From Robbsia sp. KACC 23696 (GTDB lineage: Bacteria > Pseudomonadota > Gammaproteobacteria > Burkholderiales > Burkholderiaceae), in contig NZ_CP156626.1 of assembly GCF_039852015.1 (NCBI RefSeq), positions 1,956,249 to 2,020,248 of the forward strand: a stretch of 64,000 nucleotides of DNA, in the 5' to 3' direction. Under the pieces are notes generated by a model. The model was not told where the DNA came from, made no database searches, and saw only the letters and a program-made list of their open reading frames with translations. This document shows, in pieces, positions 7,308 through 19,283 of the stretch. Numbering within the stretch: the stretch's first letter is position 1; the number at the start of each line of letters is the position of its first letter. The translations under genes and the position numbers were made by a program.

Positions 7308-8222
7308 ATGAACGACCACCAGCCTGGCATCGACGACTTGCGGATCTTCGCGTTGGTGAGCCGCTTATCCAGTTTCACTGCAGCGGCACTGCAGTTGTCG
7401 GTGCCGCGTTCGACCGCATCGACCGCCGTGAAACGCCTGGAAGATCAGCTGGGTGTGCGGCTGCTGCAGAGAACCACCCGGCGCGTCGTGCTCACGCATG
7501 AGGGCCAGGCACTGCTTGAGCGTAGCGAGCGACTGCTCGAGGACTTCGGGGAGCTCGCGACGATGTTTCACACCGGCACCACTGGGTTGAGCGGTCGGCT
7601 CAGTGTGGCGCTGCCACTCGGTATGGCAACCGGCATCATCATGACGGCGCTCCCCACCTTCACCGCGTCGCACCCGGCTTTGGAGATCGACATACACAGC
7701 GCCGATCGGCGGGTCGATGTCGTGGCCGACGGCTATGACTGCGTGGTCAGAGTAGGGCGCATCGTCGACGAATCGGTTGCTTGTCGACCGCTGGGGCAAT
7801 TGGCGCTGATCAATGTCGCGAGCAGCGGGTATATCGCGCGACACGGCAAGCCGGATGACGTCGACGCGCTGGCGCATCATAGCCTGGTGAACTACCGGCC
7901 TAATCCGACCGATCCCCCCGACGAGTTCGTTTATCAAGATGCGGAACGCACCGTCCGCGTGCCAATGCGGCATCGCGTGACCGTCGACAATAGCGCCGCC
8001 TACAACGCGGCGTGTCGGGCCGGGTATGGCATCACGCAGACACCCTACATTTCGGCCGCGGCGGATTTGAAATCCGGCGTACTGGTAGAAATTCTCCCCG
8101 GCTATCGGGCCCAGCCCATGCCGATTTATCTGCTTTACCCGCACCGTCGCAACCTCCCGCCGAGAGTCCGTCTGTTCGGCGATTGGTTGAGCGAGGTCGT
8201 ACGGACGCAAATGTCGGCTTAG
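7308..8222 (+). CDS. LysR family transcriptional regulator
   Basis: A 304-residue LysR-type regulator: N-terminal winged helix (about residues 8-65, with ALQLSVPRSTASTAVKRLEDQLGVRLLQRTTRRVVLT) followed by a type-2 periplasmic-binding-like effector domain. The pattern resembles the subgroup that often controls a divergent dehydrogenase or oxidoreductase. The ATG at 7308 lies 111 bp from the start of the divergent SDR gene; that shared intergenic region should hold its binding site. The effector is unknown. A 41-bp gap separates it from the convergent 2HCT transporter. Confidence 0.93.
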   Translation: MNDHQPGIDDLRIFALVSRLSSFTAAALQLSVPRSTASTAVKRLEDQLGVRLLQRTTRRVVLTHEGQALLERSERLLEDFGELATMFHTGTTGLSGRLSVALPLGMATGIIMTALPTFTASHPALEIDIHSADRRVDVVADGYDCVVRVGRIVDESVACRPLGQLALINVASSGYIARHGKPDDVDALAHHSLVNYRPNPTDPPDEFVYQDAERTVRVPMRHRVTVDNSAAYNAACRAGYGITQTPYISAAADLKSGVLVEILPGYRAQPMPIYLLYPHRRNLPPRVRLFGDWLSEVVRTQMSA

Positions 8223-8263: not shown

Positions 8264-9649
8264 CTAATGCACCCATGCGAACGCAGCGAGCGCAAGCATG
8301 ACCGTTATCGCACCGCCGATCCGCGTTGCGATCTGAGCGAACGGCATCAGCGCCATCCGATTCGCAGCGGTCAAGATGGCGACATCGCCCGTCCCGCCCA
8401 AGCCGCTATGCGTGGCGTTGACGATCGCCGCTTCGATCGGATACATCCCGATCCATCGCGCAACGACGAAACCGGTGACGACCAAGGTCAGCACGGTGGA
8501 CACGGCAGTCAGAATATTGGTCCAATGAAACGCCGTGGCGATTTCGCCCCACGGCGTCATCGCCACACTGATGGCGAACATCAAGGGGTAGGTTACCGAG
8601 GTCGAGAAAAAGCGATACATGACGCGCGCGCCGCCGCGAACGCTCGGGGAAACCAGATGGAAAATCTGCGCCGCGACGACGAACAGCAACATCATCACCG
8701 GCGCCGGCCAGCCCAGCGTCTGCTGCAACAGCATGCCGGCCAGATACAGTGCGATCGCGGTGGCGCCGGCCGCTGCAAGTGCGGTGACATCGATGCCGGC
8801 GGACGCCTCCTCGAAGGGCGATTCCTCACGTGCCTCATCCTGCGCCGATGCGATCGTCAGGCGTCCGTTTCCCGTCCAGGCCCGCTTGTGCGTTCCGAGA
8901 TAGCTCAGCACGCCGGCGCAGCAGATGGCCACGATATTTCCGAGCATGACCGCGGACAAGGCCTGCGCAAAAATCGGCCCTTGTTCGACGCCCATGATGT
9001 GCGCATAACCGGCCGACAGCGGCAAGGCGCCTTCGCCGACGCCGCCGGCCATGATCGGAATGACCACCATGAACAGGGCGTGCCGGAGATCCAGGCCCAG
9101 CGCCACGCCCACTGCGGTACCGACGCAGGCGGCGGCAACGGAACCGACGGCGATCGGAATGAAAATACGCGCGAAGCCGCTGATCAGCGTACGACGGTCC
9201 ATACTCAATACACTGCCGACGATGATGGCTGCGATGAACAGGTAGAGAAAATTCGACGACTTCGTGAAGTCGGTGATCGCCTTCGTCAATGGCGCCGGCA
9301 TCCAGTGATAATAGACCAGCATCGACGGCAGGAAGGCGGCGAAAATCGAAGTCGCACCGATATGCCGAATCCACGGAATCCGCTTCGCGAGTTCGGCGCA
9401 GGTAAAGCCGCCTACGGCCACCAAGGCAATGCCGGTAGGGAGATCGGATGCCAGCTTGCCATGCAGCGTCATCGCGGCCAGGATGCCGATCAATAGCAGA
9501 TAGATCGGCAGCGGTAGCGAGCCGATGCGTATATCGAACAGGCGCCACCACCGATGGCGCCAGCGTGTCGCCTCAGCGGGGCGGCCCGCGGATGTTGCGT
9601 GCAGGCGCGCGGCTTCCGTACCAGCATGATCTGTTGCAAGGGGTTTCAT
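8264..9649 (-). CDS. 2-hydroxycarboxylate transporter (2HCT) family symporter
   Basis: A 461-residue inner-membrane carrier with about 11 hydrophobic segments. It carries the two family re-entrant-loop motifs: GGVGEGALPLS in the first half and GLGGTGDVAILTAANRM near the C-terminus, which in CitS, MleP and CimH form the substrate site for molecules bearing a 2-hydroxycarboxylate group (citrate, malate, lactate). The ATG at 9649 has GGAGA 7 bp upstream; a longer frame to 9718 is not supported. It is the last gene of a leftward series with AtoE-like transporter, amidohydrolase, CoA-transferase and CitE-like lyase, which suggests it brings in the 2-hydroxy (di)carboxylate that those enzymes degrade. 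Confidence 0.88.
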   Translation of the reverse strand: MKPLATDHAGTEAARLHATSAGRPAEATRWRHRWWRLFDIRIGSLPLPIYLLLIGILAAMTLHGKLASDLPTGIALVAVGGFTCAELAKRIPWIRHIGATSIFAAFLPSMLVYYHWMPAPLTKAITDFTKSSNFLYLFIAAIIVGSVLSMDRRTLISGFARIFIPIAVGSVAAACVGTAVGVALGLDLRHALFMVVIPIMAGGVGEGALPLSAGYAHIMGVEQGPIFAQALSAVMLGNIVAICCAGVLSYLGTHKRAWTGNGRLTIASAQDEAREESPFEEASAGIDVTALAAAGATAIALYLAGMLLQQTLGWPAPVMMLLFVVAAQIFHLVSPSVRGGARVMYRFFSTSVTYPLMFAISVAMTPWGEIATAFHWTNILTAVSTVLTLVVTGFVVARWIGMYPIEAAIVNATHSGLGGTGDVAILTAANRMALMPFAQIATRIGGAITVMLALAAFAWVH

Positions 9650-9671
9650 CGCACCGTCTCCGTTTGTCGTT

Positions 9672-11036
9672 CTAGACCAGCACAAACAACGCGACGCCGT
9701 AAATGACGGCGCTGACAAGAAACGTCATCATCGTGAAACCGAGCACGCGTTGGACACCCACGCCGGCCATGGCGACGACGGGCGCGGCCCAAAAGGGCTG
9801 CAACATATTCGAGACTTGCTCGCCCATCGCAACCGCCATCGTCGTGGCGGGGACGGACGCATGCAGCGATACCGCCGCCGGCACCACGAAGGGGCCTTGT
9901 ACCGCCCAATGGCCGCCACCGCTCGGAATGAAGAACGTCACGATCAACGAACAGATATAGCTCCAGAACGGCAGCGTGTGCGCGTTCGAGATCGCGATGA
10001 AGAAATGCGAGACGACATCCGGCAAGCCGGTCGCGTCCATCATGCCCATGATGCCGCCGTAAAGCGGATACTGGAGCAACATCGAACCGCTCTGCTTTGT
10101 GGCGTTCTTGACCGCTTCACCATAGGCCAGCGGCGAACCGTGCAGGATCACGCCGGCAATGAACATCGTAAATATCACGGCGTTGACGCCGGAGACATTC
10201 AAGTGCTGAAACTGCGCCATCACAAAAACGCCGATGCCGCCTACGCCGATGAACGCACTGCCGATCCATGAGTGTTCGATCCAATGGGCAAAGCTGAGCT
10301 TGCCGACCGGGCGCTGACAAGGGGGCGGCTCCGGGTGTTTCTGCGTGTCCAGTACGACGGCGTTCTCGTCCGACGGTTTGAGCCAGGCAAGCACGAAAGG
10401 CATCACTGCCAGCGTAAGCAGCGTCGGAACGAGATTGAATACCGTGAACACGGTGCTCCCGAGTGGCAGCACCTGGCCGGTCAACTTCTGTACGACGTTC
10501 ATCGGACTGCCCGCGGTGGCTTGGGCAAGAGCGATCGAACTCGACATACCGCTTGCCCAGACTACCCATCCTGAAAAACCGGCGGCAACGATCCAGGCGA
10601 AATCGACGCGCATGCGCTTCGCCACTTCACGCGCCAACAACGCACTGATCACCAGGCCGAAACCCCAGTTGAAGAAGGAGGCGACAGCCACGAGGACAAA
10701 GGTCAATGCGGCGGCTTGAATCGGCGTGCGGGCGATCGATACGATCGCCTTGAACACGCGCTGCACCGGTGGTGCATGCGCGAACGCATGGCCGGTCACA
10801 AGGATCAAGGTGATCTGGATCGCGAACGTCAGGATATCGAAAAACCCCTTGTACCAACCGCCGAAAAGACGCGGCAAGGTGGCATGCGGCGCGATCGCCA
10901 GCGACAGCACGGCGACGATCGCGGTGATCAGGATCGCCAGCACAAAGGGATCGGGCATCCAACGCTCGAAGAATCCGATGATCGCTTCGGTGAAACGTGT
11001 CTTAGGATCGGACGGGGCAACGGCCGCTTGCTTCAT
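9672..11036 (-). CDS. Short-chain fatty acid transporter, AtoE family
   Basis: A 454-residue integral membrane protein. Recognisable family stretches are FFERWMPDPFVLAILITAIVA near the N-terminus, WGFGLVISALLAREVAKR, and SLIVTFFIPSGGGHWAVQGPFVVPAA toward the C-terminus, the last being the signature of AtoE-type short-chain fatty acid carriers (TIGR00366). The ATG at 11036 follows CAGGAGAC; the frame continues upstream but that part overlaps non-coding DNA. It is separated by 22 bp from the 2HCT gene, so two carboxylate transporters sit side by side in one operon. The likely substrates are short monocarboxylates such as acetoacetate or butyrate; the real one is not known. Confidence 0.88.
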   Translation of the reverse strand: MKQAAVAPSDPKTRFTEAIIGFFERWMPDPFVLAILITAIVAVLSLAIAPHATLPRLFGGWYKGFFDILTFAIQITLILVTGHAFAHAPPVQRVFKAIVSIARTPIQAAALTFVLVAVASFFNWGFGLVISALLAREVAKRMRVDFAWIVAAGFSGWVVWASGMSSSIALAQATAGSPMNVVQKLTGQVLPLGSTVFTVFNLVPTLLTLAVMPFVLAWLKPSDENAVVLDTQKHPEPPPCQRPVGKLSFAHWIEHSWIGSAFIGVGGIGVFVMAQFQHLNVSGVNAVIFTMFIAGVILHGSPLAYGEAVKNATKQSGSMLLQYPLYGGIMGMMDATGLPDVVSHFFIAISNAHTLPFWSYICSLIVTFFIPSGGGHWAVQGPFVVPAAVSLHASVPATTMAVAMGEQVSNMLQPFWAAPVVAMAGVGVQRVLGFTMMTFLVSAVIYGVALFVLV

Positions 11037-11131
11037 TTTTTTGTCTCCTGAGATGCGAGTGAGGGCGGCGCGTTCTACGCGCGCTCGTCCGTTTATGCCG
11101 CTTTTTTTTCTGTGTGGAATGCCGGATTTGT

Positions 11132-12001
11132 TCAGAAAGGGAAGTCGTACAGAACGCCGGGATTCCGTACCAGAATGCGTTCGCGAAGCGCCGTGTCGTC
11201 CGCCCATGTATCGAGGAGGGCGCGCAATCGGCCATCGTCCGGCTTCTGTGTTTCGGTCGTGTGCGGCCAGTCGCTGCCCCACACGACGCGTTCGGGAAGC
11301 GTGCCGATCCAGGCCTTTGCAACCGCACATCGATCGGCGTAAGAATCGGCCGCGCCCGTCAGCGAATCGAGATACGGCCCCGAAAGCTTGACCCAGACGC
11401 GGCCGGTTTCAGCCAGATCGCGGACGATGTCGAATGCCGGATGCTTAATGCCCGCAGGCTGCGGCAATCGCGCCATATGATCGAATACGATCGTGCACGG
11501 CAGGCGCTTCAACATCACGCGATGCGCGACGATCTGATCGGCTCGCCAATGCAACTGCACATGCCAGCCCAGATCGGCCATCCGATGCGACAGCGGTTCC
11601 ACCATATCGAAGGACACTGCCGCGTTTGCCGGCGTGTACAAGGTGAAGCGGATACCGCGAATGCCGCCTGCATGAAGTGCCGCGAGTGCCGCATTGCTGA
11701 TATCGGGATGCACCACGGCAACGCCGCGCGCCCGATCGACGCCCAGTTGTTGGATGGCGTCCAACGTGACGCGGTTATCGGTGCCGTAGTCGCGCGGTGT
11801 CACCACCACCGTGCGCTGCGTGCCTAGATCACGCTGGACCCGCCGGTAGTCCGATACGGACGCCGCGCTGCCGTGCGCGGCCATCGCGATACCGTCCGGT
11901 AGAAAGCGGGAATCATAGATATGCATATGCGCATCGCACGCCCTGTTGAGCATGGCGGCAGGCCGCGTCGGCGCATCGTTTTCAGTCCGGTGCGGGTCCA
12001 C
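11132..12001 (-). CDS. TIM-barrel amidohydrolase, 2-pyrone-4,6-dicarboxylate hydrolase (LigI)-like
   Basis: A metal-dependent hydrolase of about 289 residues (PF04909). The N-terminal DAHMHIYD supplies the HxH metal site and the C-terminal WGSDWPH carries the catalytic aspartate; RGIRFTLYTP and VFDHMARLP are typical of the LigI-like lactonase subgroup. The GTG at 12001 is chosen since GGGAG lies just upstream; an ATG at 12028 has no ribosome site. In its operon it stands beside a CoA-transferase and a CitE-like lyase, so it may open a lactone form of the substrate or trim a side product. The exact reaction is not readable from the sequence. Confidence 0.85.
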   Translation of the reverse strand: MDPHRTENDAPTRPAAMLNRACDAHMHIYDSRFLPDGIAMAAHGSAASVSDYRRVQRDLGTQRTVVVTPRDYGTDNRVTLDAIQQLGVDRARGVAVVHPDISNAALAALHAGGIRGIRFTLYTPANAAVSFDMVEPLSHRMADLGWHVQLHWRADQIVAHRVMLKRLPCTIVFDHMARLPQPAGIKHPAFDIVRDLAETGRVWVKLSGPYLDSLTGAADSYADRCAVAKAWIGTLPERVVWGSDWPHTTETQKPDDGRLRALLDTWADDTALRERILVRNPGVLYDFPF

Positions 12002-12067
12002 CGTCGTCTCCCTTTTTAGGTCGCGCATCTTGGGCGCTGTTATCGTATTTCCATCGCAACGGCGCGA

Positions 12068-13273
12068 CTACAAGACCGCCCGCGTTTCGCGCAAGGCGGC
12101 AATGTCGTCTTCGCTCCAGCCGGCTTCTCGCAATACCGCCGTCGAGTGCTGACCGAAAGCCGGTGCGGCGAGCGGTTGCCCGGAGGGCATATCGCCGAAG
12201 CGGATCGGCTGCCGGAAGCCGCGATACCGCCCCACGCCGGGATAATCGTAGGTGGTGACCATTTCCTCGGCCAGCACTTGCGCATCGTCGAACATGTCTT
12301 CGACACTGCGGGCAGCGGCGCAGGGCACGGCCTCACCGAAGCAGTGTTCCCATTCGAGCGCACTGCGTGCGGACAGCGCCTCATGCAGCAGCGGAACGAT
12401 TTCGTCGCGGTGCTGCGCGCGTTTTCGCACGCTGTCGTATCGCGCATCGTTCGCAAGCACATCGAGGCCGGTCTTTTCGCACAGCGCCTGCCAGAAGTGG
12501 GGCGTATTGGCCGAAATATAGAGATAGCCATCGCGCGTCGGATGAATGCCGGTGATGCCGCCGGAGCGCATGTCGCGACCGACATCCTTGCCCTCGCTCT
12601 CGGCCCAGATCATCCGCGCCGACTGCATTGTCAGCGCACTGCGCAGCAGGGAAACGCCGACGTATTGACCCACGCCGTTGCGTTCACGCGCGAACAACGC
12701 CGACGACACGCCGGCCGCGACCAATGACGCGGCGTAGTAGTCGACGACGGAGCCGTACAAGACTTCCGGCGGACCGTCTTGCTTGCCTTGCAAGGTGCAC
12801 ATGCCGGTCATCGTTTGCAAGACCTGATCGTAACCGGCCTTGTCTTTATTCGGCCCGGTTTCCCCATAGCCGGTCACCGCGCAGTAGACGAGCCGAGGGT
12901 TGATCGCACGTAACTGTTCATAGGCGATACCCAATCGAGCGGGGACGCTGGGCCGGAAATTGTGCACCAGCACGTCGGCTGTCTTGACCAGCGCCATCAA
13001 CACCTGCAAGGCGGCTGCTTGTTTGAGATCGAGAACCAGACCGCGTTTGCCGCGATTGACGCCGAGAAAGGCACGGCTTTCCGCTTCCAACGTCGACGGA
13101 TATTTGCGCAGATTATCGCCGGTAGGCGGTTCGATCTTGATGACCTCGGCACCCTGGTCGGCGAGTAGCGTGCAACCATAAGGCCCGGCGATATAGGCGC
13201 TCAGATCCAGCACGCGCACGCCGGAAAGCGGCCCGGCGGTGTCTCGGTTGTCGACCTGCGGCGTGGTATCCAT
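12068..13273 (-). CDS. CaiB/BaiF family class III CoA-transferase
   Basis: A 401-residue class III CoA-transferase. It opens with LSGVRVLDLSAYIAGPYG and contains the catalytic-region pattern (GRDMRSGGITGIHPTRDGYLYIS) plus DVLVHNFRPSVPARLG, all hallmarks of the family. Such enzymes move CoA from succinyl-CoA or another acyl-CoA onto a carboxylate (carnitine, formate, malate, citramalate, itaconate). The start at 13273 follows GAGGGAAC; the longer frame to 13321 is rejected. The adjacent CitE-like lyase would cleave the CoA ester it makes. That gene pair resembles the citramalate and itaconate degradation pairs (CoA-transferase and citramalyl-CoA lyase). Confidence 0.9.
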   Translation of the reverse strand: MDTTPQVDNRDTAGPLSGVRVLDLSAYIAGPYGCTLLADQGAEVIKIEPPTGDNLRKYPSTLEAESRAFLGVNRGKRGLVLDLKQAAALQVLMALVKTADVLVHNFRPSVPARLGIAYEQLRAINPRLVYCAVTGYGETGPNKDKAGYDQVLQTMTGMCTLQGKQDGPPEVLYGSVVDYYAASLVAAGVSSALFARERNGVGQYVGVSLLRSALTMQSARMIWAESEGKDVGRDMRSGGITGIHPTRDGYLYISANTPHFWQALCEKTGLDVLANDARYDSVRKRAQHRDEIVPLLHEALSARSALEWEHCFGEAVPCAAARSVEDMFDDAQVLAEEMVTTYDYPGVGRYRGFRQPIRFGDMPSGQPLAAPAFGQHSTAVLREAGWSEDDIAALRETRAVL

Positions 13274-13351
13274 CTGTTGTTCCCTCAAAATCTTGATAAA
13301 AAACGTCGGTGCTGCAGGCATCGCGTCGCGCGATCCTGAAAAACTGCCGTG

Positions 13352-14224
13352 CTACTTTGCATCGATCAGCCCAAGCCTTTCGGCTTCTCGAACGAGTGCC
13401 AGAGCCCGATTGAAGAAGGGCGGGTCGATCATCCTGCCATCCACCACATAAGCGCCCACGCCGTTTTTTTCTGCGGTATGCGCCGCCTCGACCACGCGTA
13501 CCGCATGCGCGATGTCGTCGTCGGACGGTCGGAACACATCGTTCGCGATGGCAATCTGACTGGGGTGGATGCAGGTCTTGCCGAGAAAGCCCAGACCGTG
13601 AGCGAGTTGTGCTTCTTCCCGATAGCCGTCCGTGTCCTTGATATTGGCGAAGGCACCGTCGTAGGCATAAATGCCGGCTTCGCCCGCAGCGAGACGCACG
13701 GCAAACATCGCCTGCTGGATCGCCACCGTCACGCCGCGTCGGATACCGAGCGGCTCGAACAAATCGCCAAGCCCGAGTTGTAAGCCCTTGACCCGCGGAT
13801 GCGCGGCGGCCAAATGGGCAGCAAGGCGCAACGATCGCGGCGTCTCGATATTCAGCAGAAGTCCAATCGGAGAGGGCACATCGTGGCGTGCTTCAGCGTC
13901 TTCCAGCGCACCGATGACGCGCAATACATCGTCGACGGATTCTGCCTTGGGAAGATTGATCAGATCCAATCCGGGACGTACGACGGCCGCGATATCGGCT
14001 GCGAAATGCACGGTATCCAATGCATTGACGCGCACGATCCATGTCTGCGTTTTCGTCGCAACGGAATCGGGGGAGAGCAGTGCGCGTAAGTTGTCGCGCG
14101 CCTCCGGCTTGCGTTCGGGGCTTACCGCATCTTCGAGATCGAAGGACAGCGCGTCGGCCGCGCCGGCGCGTGCTTTCGCGAACAACTCCGGTCGCGAAGC
14201 AGGAACGAACAGCTTGCTTCTCAT
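13352..14224 (-). CDS. HpcH/HpaI (CitE-like) CoA-ester lyase
   Basis: A 290-residue TIM-barrel lyase of the CitE/malyl-CoA/citramalyl-CoA lyase group. The N-terminus RSKLFVPASRPELFAKA and the following ALSFDLEDAVSPERK with the magnesium-binding acidic residues are diagnostic, as is RVNALDT. These enzymes cleave a 2-hydroxyacyl-CoA to acetyl-CoA and a 2-oxoacid (glyoxylate from malyl-CoA, pyruvate from citramalyl-CoA). It is the first gene of the leftward operon; the CoA-transferase begins 78 bp downstream. The start is close to GGAG. It faces a divergent LysR gene 103 bp away, which probably controls the whole operon. Confidence 0.9.
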   Translation of the reverse strand: MRSKLFVPASRPELFAKARAGAADALSFDLEDAVSPERKPEARDNLRALLSPDSVATKTQTWIVRVNALDTVHFAADIAAVVRPGLDLINLPKAESVDDVLRVIGALEDAEARHDVPSPIGLLLNIETPRSLRLAAHLAAAHPRVKGLQLGLGDLFEPLGIRRGVTVAIQQAMFAVRLAAGEAGIYAYDGAFANIKDTDGYREEAQLAHGLGFLGKTCIHPSQIAIANDVFRPSDDDIAHAVRVVEAAHTAEKNGVGAYVVDGRMIDPPFFNRALALVREAERLGLIDAK

Positions 14225-14272
14225 GTCTCCGCATCCATTCTTGTTTTTAATGAGAGACAGTCTAGATGTTGC

Positions 14273-14315
14273 GCTTAATAAGATAAACTATTCACCTCTA
14301 CCTTTTACATTAAGC
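14273..14315. promoter_or_regulatory. Inverted repeat GCTTAAT...ATTAAGC, candidate LysR site
   Basis: Perfect 7-bp arms at 14273-14279 and 14309-14315 with a 29-bp spacer, in the AT-rich gap between the lyase gene (start 14224, leftward) and the LysR gene (start 14328, rightward). The right arm is 13 bp from the LysR start codon, a position suited to autoregulation. Assignment to this LysR is by position only. Confidence 0.4.
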
Positions 14316-14327
14316 AAAACTATCTTC

Positions 14328-15200
14328 ATGGACGTATCGTTTCTAGCCAATCTGTTGCTGGTCGTCGATTGCGGATCGATGGCGGAGGCGGCCAGACGGA
14401 TCGGCGTGACGCCCGCCGCGGTTGCGCAGCAAGTCCAGGCCTTGGAGCGGGAAATGGGCGTGGACTTGCTGGTGCGTTCAGGTCGCACGGTGATGCCGAC
14501 GGAAGCCGGGTATCGCGTCATTGCGCGTGCGCGCGACTTGGTGCGCGACTTCGCTGCACTAAAAGCATTCGCGCAGGAGGGCGAGCCGGTAGGAGAGCTG
14601 CGAATCGGCACGATCATGACGGCGCTCCTGAGCCTGATGCCGGACGTGCTTGCCGGCTTCTCCGGCGCATTCCCGAAGGCGAAGGTGTTGATTCGCGCCG
14701 GTACGTCGATGGAACTCTATGAGGATCTACAGCGCGGGGATTTGGATGTCGCCGTCTGCCTGCACCCCGATTTCGCTCTACCGAAGGCGTATGACTGGCA
14801 TTTGCTGCGCGAGGAAGCGATCGTCGTCATGGCGCCCGGCGCCCTGGCGGATCAGGACCCACACGATCTATTGCGCCGCGAGCCCTTCATCCGATACGAC
14901 CGGTCGCTTGGCGGCGGCAAGCAAGCAGACGACTATCTCCGCAGCGTGAAGATCGTGCCGCAGGAATTGTTCGAACTGAATTCCCTGGTCGCCATCATGA
15001 TGATGGTGGAGCGGGGCTTGGGGGTCTCGTTGGTACCCGACATCGTCTCGCCGGTGACACGCTCTTTGAACGTCGCGAAACTGCCGCTACCGATTGCTAC
15101 GCCACCGCGCCGCTTCGGCGTGTTGTGGCATCGAACCTCGCCGCGTGGACGCCTCATCCGCGGCTTTCTGGAATGTGCCGATAAGGTGGTGCAGACGTAA
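14328..15200 (+). CDS. LysR family transcriptional regulator
   Basis: A 290-residue LysR regulator. The helix-turn-helix is near residues 1-60 (GSMAEAARRIGVTPAAVAQQVQALEREMGVDLLVRSGR with TEAGYRV following), then a co-inducer domain with a segment of several methionines (SLVAIMMMVERGLGVSLVPD). The frame extends far upstream antisense to the lyase gene, but homology begins at the ATG at 14328. It is divergent from the CitE-like lyase and CoA-transferase operon and most likely regulates it in response to the substrate or an intermediate. A strong hairpin follows the stop. Confidence 0.93.
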   Translation: MDVSFLANLLLVVDCGSMAEAARRIGVTPAAVAQQVQALEREMGVDLLVRSGRTVMPTEAGYRVIARARDLVRDFAALKAFAQEGEPVGELRIGTIMTALLSLMPDVLAGFSGAFPKAKVLIRAGTSMELYEDLQRGDLDVAVCLHPDFALPKAYDWHLLREEAIVVMAPGALADQDPHDLLRREPFIRYDRSLGGGKQADDYLRSVKIVPQELFELNSLVAIMMMVERGLGVSLVPDIVSPVTRSLNVAKLPLPIATPPRRFGVLWHRTSPRGRLIRGFLECADKVVQT

Positions 15201-16756: not shown

Positions 16757-16865
16757 AGCCCCTGATCGATGTCCTGAAGGGACATCAGATTGTCCGAAAA
16801 TGACCTTTCACGTCGGATCGTATCTCACTACGATGAGCGAGACAAGAATACGGGAGACAATCCGA

Positions 16866-17804
16866 ATGAGCCATCCGAACAGCAAAGTCATCATCACATG
16901 TGCCGTGACGGGATCGGCCCATGTGCCATCGATGTCGGACTATTTGCCGTTGACGCCGGACGACATCCGGACCCAGGCCCTGGAAGCCGCGGAAGCGGGC
17001 GCCGCGATCCTGCATCTGCATGCGCGTCATCCCGAAGATGGCCGACCGACGCCGGCACCGGAGGTGTTCCGGCAGTTCGTTCCGGCGATCGCCGCGCAAA
17101 CGGATGCGGTGATCAATATCTCGACAGGCGGCAGCACGCGGATGACGCTCGACGAACGCCTGGCGTATGCGCGCCTCGCCAAACCCGAAATGTGTTCATT
17201 GAACATGGGATCGATGAACTTTTCCCTGCATCCGGTGGCGGCCAAGATAACGTCCTGGCGCTTCGACTGGGAGAAAGAATATATCGAGGGAATGGAAGAC
17301 ATGATCTTCCGCAACACCTTTCTCGATATCAAACGCATCCTGACCGAGTTTCACGAATACGGTACGCGTTTCGAGTTCGAATGCTACGACGTGGGACATC
17401 TCTATAACCTGGCGTATTTCGTCGATGCCGGCTTGGTCAAGCCACCGTTCTTTATCCAGGCTGTCATCGGCATCCTCGGCGGCATCGGTCCGGATCCGGA
17501 GAATCTCGGCGTCATGCGTGCGACGGCGGACCGCTTGTTCGGACGCGAGAACTATCACTTCTCGGTACTGGGCGCAGGTCGACATCAGATGTCGCTCGTC
17601 ACCATGGGCGCGATCCTGGGCGGCAACGTTCGGGTCGGATTGGAGGACAGCGTCTATCTTGCAAAAGGCGTGAAGGCCAAATCGAATGCGGAGCAGGTGA
17701 GAAAGATCCGACAGATTCTTGAGGCCCTTTCATTCGAGATCGCGACGCCGTCCGACGCCCGTGCCATGCTCGGCCTGAAGGGACGCGACAAGGTCTCGCT
17801 GTAG
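16866..17804 (+). CDS. 3-keto-5-aminohexanoate cleavage-type enzyme (BKACE, DUF849)
   Basis: A 312-residue TIM-barrel enzyme of the beta-keto acid cleavage family. It begins KVIITCAVTGSAH and carries the zinc HxH motif in ILHLHARHPEDGRPTP, plus ISTGGS, CSLNMGSMNF and the late SVLGAGRHQM stretch, all characteristic. BKACE enzymes condense a beta-keto acid with acetyl-CoA to give acetoacetate and a new CoA ester; lysine, carnitine and many other beta-keto acids are used in different members. The ATG at 16866 has GGGAGA upstream, better than an earlier ATG at 16800. It is followed by an MFS carrier and two SDRs, which could supply the beta-keto acid by oxidising a beta-hydroxy acid. Confidence 0.92.
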   Translation: MSHPNSKVIITCAVTGSAHVPSMSDYLPLTPDDIRTQALEAAEAGAAILHLHARHPEDGRPTPAPEVFRQFVPAIAAQTDAVINISTGGSTRMTLDERLAYARLAKPEMCSLNMGSMNFSLHPVAAKITSWRFDWEKEYIEGMEDMIFRNTFLDIKRILTEFHEYGTRFEFECYDVGHLYNLAYFVDAGLVKPPFFIQAVIGILGGIGPDPENLGVMRATADRLFGRENYHFSVLGAGRHQMSLVTMGAILGGNVRVGLEDSVYLAKGVKAKSNAEQVRKIRQILEALSFEIATPSDARAMLGLKGRDKVSL

Positions 17805-17927: not shown

Positions 17928-19283
17928 ATGACTGCCACGACGTATGACCCCGAAGTAGACGCGCCGCATCGACGCGCCACCGCCAAAGCCATGGCGCGCC
18001 TGCTGCCGATGATGTGCGCGATCTACTTCATGTCCTTCATCGATCGCACGAATGTGGCGCTGGCCAAGACGGCGCTGGCTGCCGACCTCGGTATCAGTGC
18101 CTCGGCGTACGGCCTGGGCGCCGGCATTTTCTTTATCGGCTATGCACTGCTGGAGGTTCCAAGCAATCTCGCCGCCCATCGCTATGGCCCGCGCAAGTGG
18201 ATCGCGCGTATCGCCGTGACGTGGGGGGTGCTCTCGACGGCGATGATGTTCGTGCAGGGGACCACGTCGTTCTATGTGTTGCGCGTGCTGCTCGGCATCG
18301 CCGAAGCCGGCTTGTTTCCCGCGCTGATGTATATGGTCACGCTGTGGTTCGCCCCGAAGGATCGCCCGGTCGCGGTCGGTTGGATCTATACCGCGCCGTC
18401 CGTCGCCTTGATCGTCGGCAGCCCGCTGGGCGCCGCATTGATGCAGTTAGGTGGGCGGGGCGGCTTGCATGGCTGGCAATGGATGTTTCTTCTGGAGGGG
18501 GTACCGACGGTGCTATTGGGTATCGTCCTGTATTTCACGCTGCCTGACCGTCCCACCGACGTTCGCTGGTTGTCGTCCCAGGAAGCGCAGGCACTCGAAA
18601 CGCACGCGGTGATCGATACCCACGGACGCGCGGACCTCAGCTCGGCGCATTGGATCGCGGCGATCAAGCGCCCGACTACGATCCTGATCGCCTTGATCTA
18701 TTTCCTGAATCAAGTCGCCTTCGTCGGCCTCTATTTCTTCACGCCGTCGATCGTTGCGCAGATGCATGTTGCGTCGCCGCTTCTCGTCGGCGTGTTATCG
18801 AGTAGCGTCGGGATCGGTTTCCTCGTTGGGGTGCTGACGCTTCCACGCATACACCGTCGGGTCAAGAACGAATGTCGTTTCCTCGGCATTCTGACCGCGG
18901 GCGTGGTCATCAGTGCCTGCACGTTTATCGCCACGCGCAATCAGGCCGCGCAGATCACGCTACTCGGCATCACCGGCTTTTTCGCCGGCGGCATCCTTCC
19001 GTCGTACTGGTCCATCGCGATGAAACGGCTTCAGGGCGTGCAGGCCGCGGCCGGCCTGGCCTTCATCAATACCGTCGGCTTATTGGGCGGATTTGTCGGC
19101 CCTTATCTCTTCGGGCTGGCAGAAGCAATGACGGGAAGAAGCGACGCCGGCTTCAATATCGTCGTGGCGGCGTCCGTACTGGGGCTGATCCTCGTGCCGC
19201 TTTTGGCCAAAGCGATTCATACTGCCGAGCGGCCGTCTTACCTGGCCGGCGGCGCGAGCGACTTGCACATCTCAAAAAGCTGA
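17928..19283 (+). CDS. MFS transporter, anion:cation symporter (ACS) type
   Basis: A 451-residue 12-helix carrier. The first helix region reads CAIYFMSFIDRTNVALAKTALAADLGIS, the ACS-family signature, followed by GAGIFFIGYALLEVPSNLAAHRYGPRKWIARI. ACS members bring in organic anions such as phthalate, tartrate, glucarate or 4-hydroxyphenylacetate with protons. It lies 123 bp after the BKACE gene and 82 bp before the first SDR and is presumably part of the same AraC-controlled unit, importing the beta-hydroxy or beta-keto acid substrate. GGAG is present 8 bp before the ATG. Confidence 0.92.
   Translation: MTATTYDPEVDAPHRRATAKAMARLLPMMCAIYFMSFIDRTNVALAKTALAADLGISASAYGLGAGIFFIGYALLEVPSNLAAHRYGPRKWIARIAVTWGVLSTAMMFVQGTTSFYVLRVLLGIAEAGLFPALMYMVTLWFAPKDRPVAVGWIYTAPSVALIVGSPLGAALMQLGGRGGLHGWQWMFLLEGVPTVLLGIVLYFTLPDRPTDVRWLSSQEAQALETHAVIDTHGRADLSSAHWIAAIKRPTTILIALIYFLNQVAFVGLYFFTPSIVAQMHVASPLLVGVLSSSVGIGFLVGVLTLPRIHRRVKNECRFLGILTAGVVISACTFIATRNQAAQITLLGITGFFAGGILPSYWSIAMKRLQGVQAAAGLAFINTVGLLGGFVGPYLFGLAEAMTGRSDAGFNIVVAASVLGLILVPLLAKAIHTAERPSYLAGGASDLHISKS

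Follow-up and report, generated by a model that had tools for sequence, protein, structure and literature searches.

A five-gene operon facing a LysR regulator

The window analysed here is a stretch of 64,000 nucleotides from Robbsia sp. KACC 23696 (Burkholderiaceae; contig NZ_CP156626.1), and our subject is an operon of five genes, all on the minus strand within positions 8264-14224 of this window, with a divergent LysR regulator gene alongside (14328..15200, plus strand, ATG at 14328). Read from 14224 leftward, the operon encodes a CitE-like beta-hydroxyacyl-coenzyme A (CoA) lyase of 290 residues (13352..14224), a class III (CaiB/BaiF) CoA-transferase of 417 residues (12068..13321, with an alternative start, Met17, at 13273), a LigI-like amidohydrolase of the cog3618 type, a probable lactonase of 298 residues (11132..12028), an AtoE-like carrier of 454 residues (9672..11036) and a symporter of the 2HCT family of 461 residues (8264..9649), the intergenic gaps being 30, 39, 95 and 22 bp. 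All five open reading frames are intact, and each has its Pfam match (PF03328, HpcH_HpaI, 126 bits; PF02515, CoA_transf_3, 398 bits; PF04909, Amidohydro_2, 137 bits; PF02667, SCFA_trans, 366 bits; PF03390, 2HCT, 456 bits), bearing out the five leftward genes and facing LysR of the initial annotation, with two starts corrected. The reading frames of the two carriers are over-long at their 5' ends, and the likely starts are 11036, chosen by homology and with AGGAGA upstream, and 9649. Between the lyase and LysR genes lies a conserved operator/promoter element (14259..14324, minus strand), GATAGnTT..CT...AAGATAG...GATAGTTTATCT...TAGACT, as defined by a 28-locus alignment.

All of the operon proteins score below the cut-offs of the curated NCBIfam equivalogs, and their subfamilies are therefore without a name. 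The CoA-transferase, whose nearest solved structure is SUGCT (196 bits), possesses the GYD Asp165 of class III (in AGYDQV), which we take to be catalytic, and its scores remain well short of the curated cut-off for each characterised family. The 2HCT carrier possesses both GG motifs of its family and keeps CitS Arg428, but has Leu in place of CitS Arg402 and Val in place of Asn186, and it scores 247 bits against the 600-bit cut-off of the CitS equivalog. Since Arg402 and Asn186 are, along with Arg428, among the citrate ligands of CitS (PMC4718727), citrate is an unlikely cargo.

To follow the lyase across genomes, a genome collection was scanned with an alignment of ten lyases, resulting in at least 459 relatives, of which 80 named loci were kept. 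The identical order of lyase, CoA-transferase, hydrolase, AtoE and 2HCT genes, with a divergent LysR, is found in Caballeronia, Paraburkholderia and Pandoraea, with the CoA-transferase, the lyase and LysR 68-85% identical to those of the window; with the window itself counted, such complete loci number 15. The core of the lyase and the CoA-transferase is present in most of the 80 loci and, usually with a LysR, recurs across Burkholderiales; the LysR next to the lyase is 57-82% identical in most Burkholderiaceae and Comamonadaceae loci. The arrangement is thus not due to chance, as, besides the window, no fewer than 14 complete loci show the same five-gene order and most of the 80 show the core. 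The lyase is carried by 35 of 250 Burkholderiaceae genomes, in 7 of 25 genera, and, at a looser threshold, by 5 of 399 Pseudomonadota genomes. The module is real, widespread and catabolic, and the proposal of a complete module for uptake, CoA activation and carbon-carbon cleavage of a 2-hydroxy acid is supported. No operon with these five members is described in the literature searched, as had been anticipated, and this bacterial operon, common as it is, has apparently been undescribed so far.

Two further pairings were seen. In four loci (L028, L152, L153 and L154) a lyase and a LysR (49-53% identical) are accompanied by an SSS symporter of 800 residues whose long N-terminal part is unassigned, and no CoA-transferase is encoded nearby. 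In two small-genome Burkholderiaceae (G053 and G019; loci L127 and L128) another, RipC-like lyase, approximately 34% identical, stands beside a 2HCT gene, an independent lyase-2HCT pairing. Five loci (L020, L052, L079, L029 and L086) possess a methylisocitrate-lyase-like gene (PEP mutase/ICL superfamily) near the lyase gene.

Two cassettes and a shared operator

The operon is composed of two transport-plus-enzyme cassettes under one regulator, the first made of the lyase, the CoA-transferase and the 2HCT carrier, and the second of the LigI-like hydrolase and the AtoE-like carrier. Among the loci without receptors of tripartite transporters (TTT, or Bug, receptors), AtoE is present in 23 of 25 that encode the hydrolase and in 0 of 10 that do not (Fisher 3.6e-7), while 2HCT presence is independent of the hydrolase (p 0.27); among the loci with TTT receptors, a second receptor goes with the hydrolase (25/33 versus 3/14 without it, p 9e-4). 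These statistics ignore the kinship of the loci, a point that counts against the reading built on them. Cupriavidus, Variovorax and relatives have one receptor gene between the lyase and CoA-transferase genes and the second alongside the hydrolase. Each cassette can be lost without the other; Trinickia and three Pandoraea loci keep only the lyase, CoA-transferase and 2HCT genes, the hydrolase and AtoE both missing. In another genome of the same genus (G002) the cassettes are physically separate: leftward 2HCT, CoA-transferase and lyase genes are followed by a rightward LysR and then by leftward AtoE and hydrolase genes.

From 28 loci, with the window left out, a weight matrix was built for the element between the LysR and lyase genes. 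The copy in the window scores 40.9, the next best match in the 64 kb scoring -33.1, and across the window's genome the element's core has a single exact match and one further match with a mismatch. Over 14 kb of G002, the two best matches precede the lyase (-0.0) and the hydrolase (-11.1), the latter only just outside the maximum of -12.0 reached in 100 shuffles. As the separate hydrolase-AtoE unit of G002 has the same operator as the lyase promoter, we read the two cassettes as one regulon serving two imports, one of an open acid and one of a form that is converted to the open acid by the hydrolase.

It has to be considered that the hydrolase and AtoE may serve some unrelated pathway, for a lactone or a short-chain acid, and merely reside in the same operon, as could be suggested by the lack of the hydrolase in some core loci and by the abundance of cog3618-type amidohydrolases in the window's genome (ten matches). 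We find this improbable, given that the hydrolase stays with the lyase in Burkholderia-, Variovorax-, Methylobacterium- and Roseomonas-type loci despite different carriers and gene orders, and that the separated unit of G002 still possesses the operator. That the hydrolase feeds the pathway, one part of an earlier suggestion that it opens a lactone, is supported by its association with a carrier of its own and by the operator common to both cassettes in a sister genome.

Two other features of the window lie outside the operon. A second LysR gene (7308-8222, plus strand) adjoins the 2HCT gene and is not conserved with the operon. Further away, a BKACE gene (16800-17804, plus strand; 506 bits versus the 430-bit cut-off of NF053538, 3,5-dioxohexanoate:acetyl-CoA acetone transferase) is followed by a gene for an MFS carrier (17928-19283) and faced by an AraC regulator.

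The lyase and the hydrolase among characterised enzymes

The AlphaFold model of the lyase (pLDDT 95) has its best PDB matches in malyl-CoA and citramalyl-CoA lyases, and the Mg/catalytic residues R65, E127 and D154 and the C-terminal D267 are present in 90 of 90 members of the subfamily, as expected for the CitE-like superfamily of TIM barrels, in which the first three correspond to Arg64, Glu112 and Asp138 of Rv2498c. A comparison with characterised families, as recommended in the initial annotation, resulted in every cut-off being missed: the lyase reaches 155 of 375 bits for NF038242 (RipC/Ccl) and 187 of 443 bits for TIGR01588 (citrate lyase beta/CitE), its best NCBIfam match. It belongs to a clade with 100/100 support and no characterised member, separate from Pseudomonas aeruginosa Ccl and Yersinia pestis RipC. 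With the lyase in a clade of its own, and both it and the CoA-transferase far below the family cut-offs, the assignment to citramalate or a close relative is not supported as stated.

The operon resembles the citrate lyase system (CitDEF with CitS) in its 2HCT carrier, in acyl transfer followed by CitE-type cleavage and in the best NCBIfam score of its lyase, but a class III CoA-transferase is present instead, CitS Arg402 is missing, and none of the operon genes encodes CitD (the acyl carrier protein), CitF, CitC, CitX or CitG. One could envision a tricarboxylate pathway of the citrate type, in which the transferase and the CitE homologue would act as a free-CoA citrate lyase for hydroxycitrate or homocitrate, the hydrolase would open the lactones, and acetyl-CoA and a 2-oxo diacid would result. 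Both of these acids do form gamma-lactones, and in the first tree the lyase was sister to E. coli CitE (93/78). This grouping dissolved once more CitE-type rows were added, and a CitE sister position, seen in one tree only, was rejected. Position 157 is Glu in the lyase and Arg in E. coli CitE, and an additional basic residue that could bind a third carboxylate was not seen; along with the loss of Arg402 from the carrier, this makes such a pathway unlikely. Citrate itself was rejected, as it already is an intermediate of the tricarboxylic acid cycle and Arg402 is missing. A TIGR01588 search of 185 genomes found no CitE.

Similarity to the itaconate clusters (ict-ich-ccl or rip; PA0878-0886 in P. 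aeruginosa, ripABC in Y. pestis) lies in the CoA-transferase and the CitE-like lyase producing acetyl-CoA and a 2-oxo acid. These clusters can be extended by the lactonase PA0880 and by a gene of the MmgE/PrpD type (PMC9875883, PMC12290011), and MmgE/PrpD genes also occur beside AtoE or the hydrolase in some of the relatives' loci. Unlike in these clusters, the lyase belongs to another clade, under the RipC/Ccl cut-off, the hydrolase is an amidohydrolase while PA0880 is of the glyoxalase type, and the carriers are 2HCT and AtoE. As the initial annotation had observed, none of the operon's five genes encodes an itaconyl-CoA hydratase (the rest of the genome was not searched for hydratases), and no protein genome-wide exceeds the RipC/Ccl cut-off; itaconate itself was rejected for want of the hydratase gene in the operon. 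In five loci of Paraburkholderia the MmgE/PrpD-family gene comes after AtoE, and in one of Methylobacterium it comes after the hydrolase (L033, L035, L041, L043, L060 and L024); its closest PDB entries are cis-aconitate decarboxylase and iminodisuccinate epimerase.

The pocket of the lyase was read through aligned residues. Rv2498c, a mycobacterial CitE that cleaves (S)-citramalyl-CoA and (R)-HMG-CoA, shares the fold, the equivalents of R65/E127/D154 and the C-terminal Asp at approximately 35% identity, but of its contacts with the substrate methyl, Met133, Gly135 and Val181 (PMC6689899), the equivalents are Gln149, Gly151 and Ala191, and a Leu is replaced by Asn125. Within the subfamily, Gln149 is found in 90/90 members, Asn125 in 89/90 and Glu157 in 88/90, while the compared enzymes have an apolar or small residue at 125 and Ile, Val, Met, Ser, Ala or Tyr at 149. 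Asn125 and Glu157 are polar against mostly apolar residues in other CitE-like lyases. Gln is also present at 149 in a CitE-type subunit of Peptoclostridium, perhaps a citramalate lyase, as its citrate-lyase-type cluster adjoins methylaspartate mutase. Gln149 was accordingly no longer taken to prove that the substrate carries a polar group like CH2OH, and citramalate keeps a place among the candidate substrates; Asn125 and Glu157 remain clade-specific after this comparison.

An operon for citramalate (or malate), in which the CoA-transferase would make citramalyl-CoA and the lyase would split it into acetyl-CoA and pyruvate, with the hydrolase acting on an ester or an amide of citramalate and not on a lactone, may thus be entertained, if tentatively. 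The nearest characterised chemistry is the cleavage of citramalyl-CoA or malyl-CoA, the genome encodes no protein over the RipC/Ccl cut-off, Gln149 is shared with the putative Peptoclostridium enzyme, and hydrolase-free loci served by Bug or 2HCT proteins would work as a plain set for uptake, activation and cleavage. On the other side are a lyase far under the RipC/Ccl cut-off and outside the Ccl and RipC groups, Asn125 and Glu157 where citramalyl-CoA lyases have hydrophobic or small residues, and a conserved lactonase-like cassette that citramalate and malate, forming no gamma-lactone, leave unexplained.

As to the hydrolase, its best PDB match is LigI, and H34/H36/H184/D253 align with LigI H31/H33/H180/D248, presumably the catalytic His/Asp set. 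LigI R130 and R217, which we take to be the ligands of the substrate carboxylates, are replaced by Pro133 and Ser222 in a pairwise alignment, and the hydrolase should therefore bind a lactone with fewer carboxylates than 2-pyrone-4,6-dicarboxylate (PDC); PDC was rejected as a substrate on the same grounds. The likeness to the cog3618 lactonases (LigI and 4-sulfomuconolactone hydrolase) is limited to the fold family and the His/Asp set, the score against SlmHylase being 152 of 500 bits. In the place of this hydrolase, an amidase and an isochorismatase stand beside the lyase in Variovorax SRS16, a carboxylesterase in Sphingopyxis and in a sphingomonad-type genome, and a cyclase-family protein in Cupriavidus EM10, suggesting that hydrolysis before activation is recurrent and is carried out by unrelated enzymes.

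A proposed pathway with two entries and its substrates

From the observed gene content, conservation, cassette structure, shared operator and catalytic residues we infer the reactions and both substrates of a LysR-controlled catabolic module that probably has two entries, one for an open-chain 2-hydroxy dicarboxylate and one for its ring-closed form. In the first, the 2HCT carrier would import the open-chain acid, the class III CoA-transferase would place CoA on its CH2-COOH end, and the CitE-like lyase would perform a retro-Claisen cleavage to acetyl-CoA and a 2-oxo acid. In the second, the AtoE-like carrier would bring in this acid in a less charged, ring-closed form, whose ring the LigI-like hydrolase would open, the product joining the first entry. 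The chemistry originally envisioned, activation and then retro-Claisen cleavage to acetyl-CoA and a 2-oxo acid, is supported in outline.

The lyase chemistry needs HOOC-CH2-C(OH)(R)-COOH or a 3-substituted malate, and a gamma-lactone needs a hydroxyl or a carboxyl on R, which malate (R = H) and citramalate (R = CH3) lack, so that neither can form such a lactone and both fit the hydrolase cassette poorly. The earlier remark on a lactone was thus chemically inconsistent with citramalate, yet it points at a real second entry. Suitable R groups are CH2OH (itatartarate, with 2-hydroxyparaconate as the lactone), CH2CH2COOH (homocitrate) and CH(OH)COOH (hydroxycitrate). Itatartarate with 2-hydroxyparaconate is our lead candidate, held with much reserve; citramalate calls for the same reserve. 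Another acid of this type with a polar R, like hydroxycitrate or homocitrate with their lactones, is a more doubtful choice, and a substrate of some different kind is a serious possibility, if still short of probable. The lactone of 2-hydroxyglutarate was rejected, as its CoA ester is not a beta-hydroxyacyl-CoA.

A number of observations weigh against this scheme. Sphingomonad- and xanthomonad-type loci possess the lyase, LysR and an SSS carrier and no neighbouring CoA-transferase. In Variovorax (L082) a gene like L-2-hydroxyglutarate oxidase (Pfam/NCBIfam) is inserted in the operon, with the same gap in L102 and L103, and in a locus from a metagenome-assembled genome (L036) the insert encodes an FMN 2-hydroxyacid dehydrogenase; the substrates of such enzymes have to be secondary alcohols, which citramalate and itatartarate are not. 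The known substrates of AtoE are simple short-chain acids only, and the hydrolase might act on an ester or an amide instead, which would be compatible with citramalate. For itatartarate specifically, the fungal 2-hydroxyparaconate is reported to be (S), at odds with the geometry of the family, in which (S)-citramalyl corresponds to (R)-itatartaryl, and the window's genome encodes no hydroxypyruvate reductase of the MOFRL type; it encodes one hydroxypyruvate-isomerase-like protein, below the cut-off.

Fungal 2-hydroxyparaconate has an inhibitory effect on bacteria, and in P. aeruginosa an unrelated lactonase converts it to itatartarate, which the organism cannot use further, a dead end (PMC9875883). 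Engineered Ustilago also makes 2-hydroxyparaconate (PMC11626831); no characterised catabolic enzyme for itatartarate was found in the literature searched. It is conceivable, though unlikely, that the operon represents the first bacterial route for growth on fungal 2-hydroxyparaconate (through AtoE and the LigI-like hydrolase) and on itatartarate (through 2HCT), via itatartaryl-CoA to acetyl-CoA and hydroxypyruvate. If true, this would carry the breakdown of a fungal antimicrobial past its reported dead end. More generally, pairs of a CoA-transferase and a CitE-like lyase are numerous and mostly without an assigned substrate, and here a whole clade is accompanied by a regulator, an operator and two import cassettes that can be separated; naming its substrate would therefore serve hundreds of genomes.

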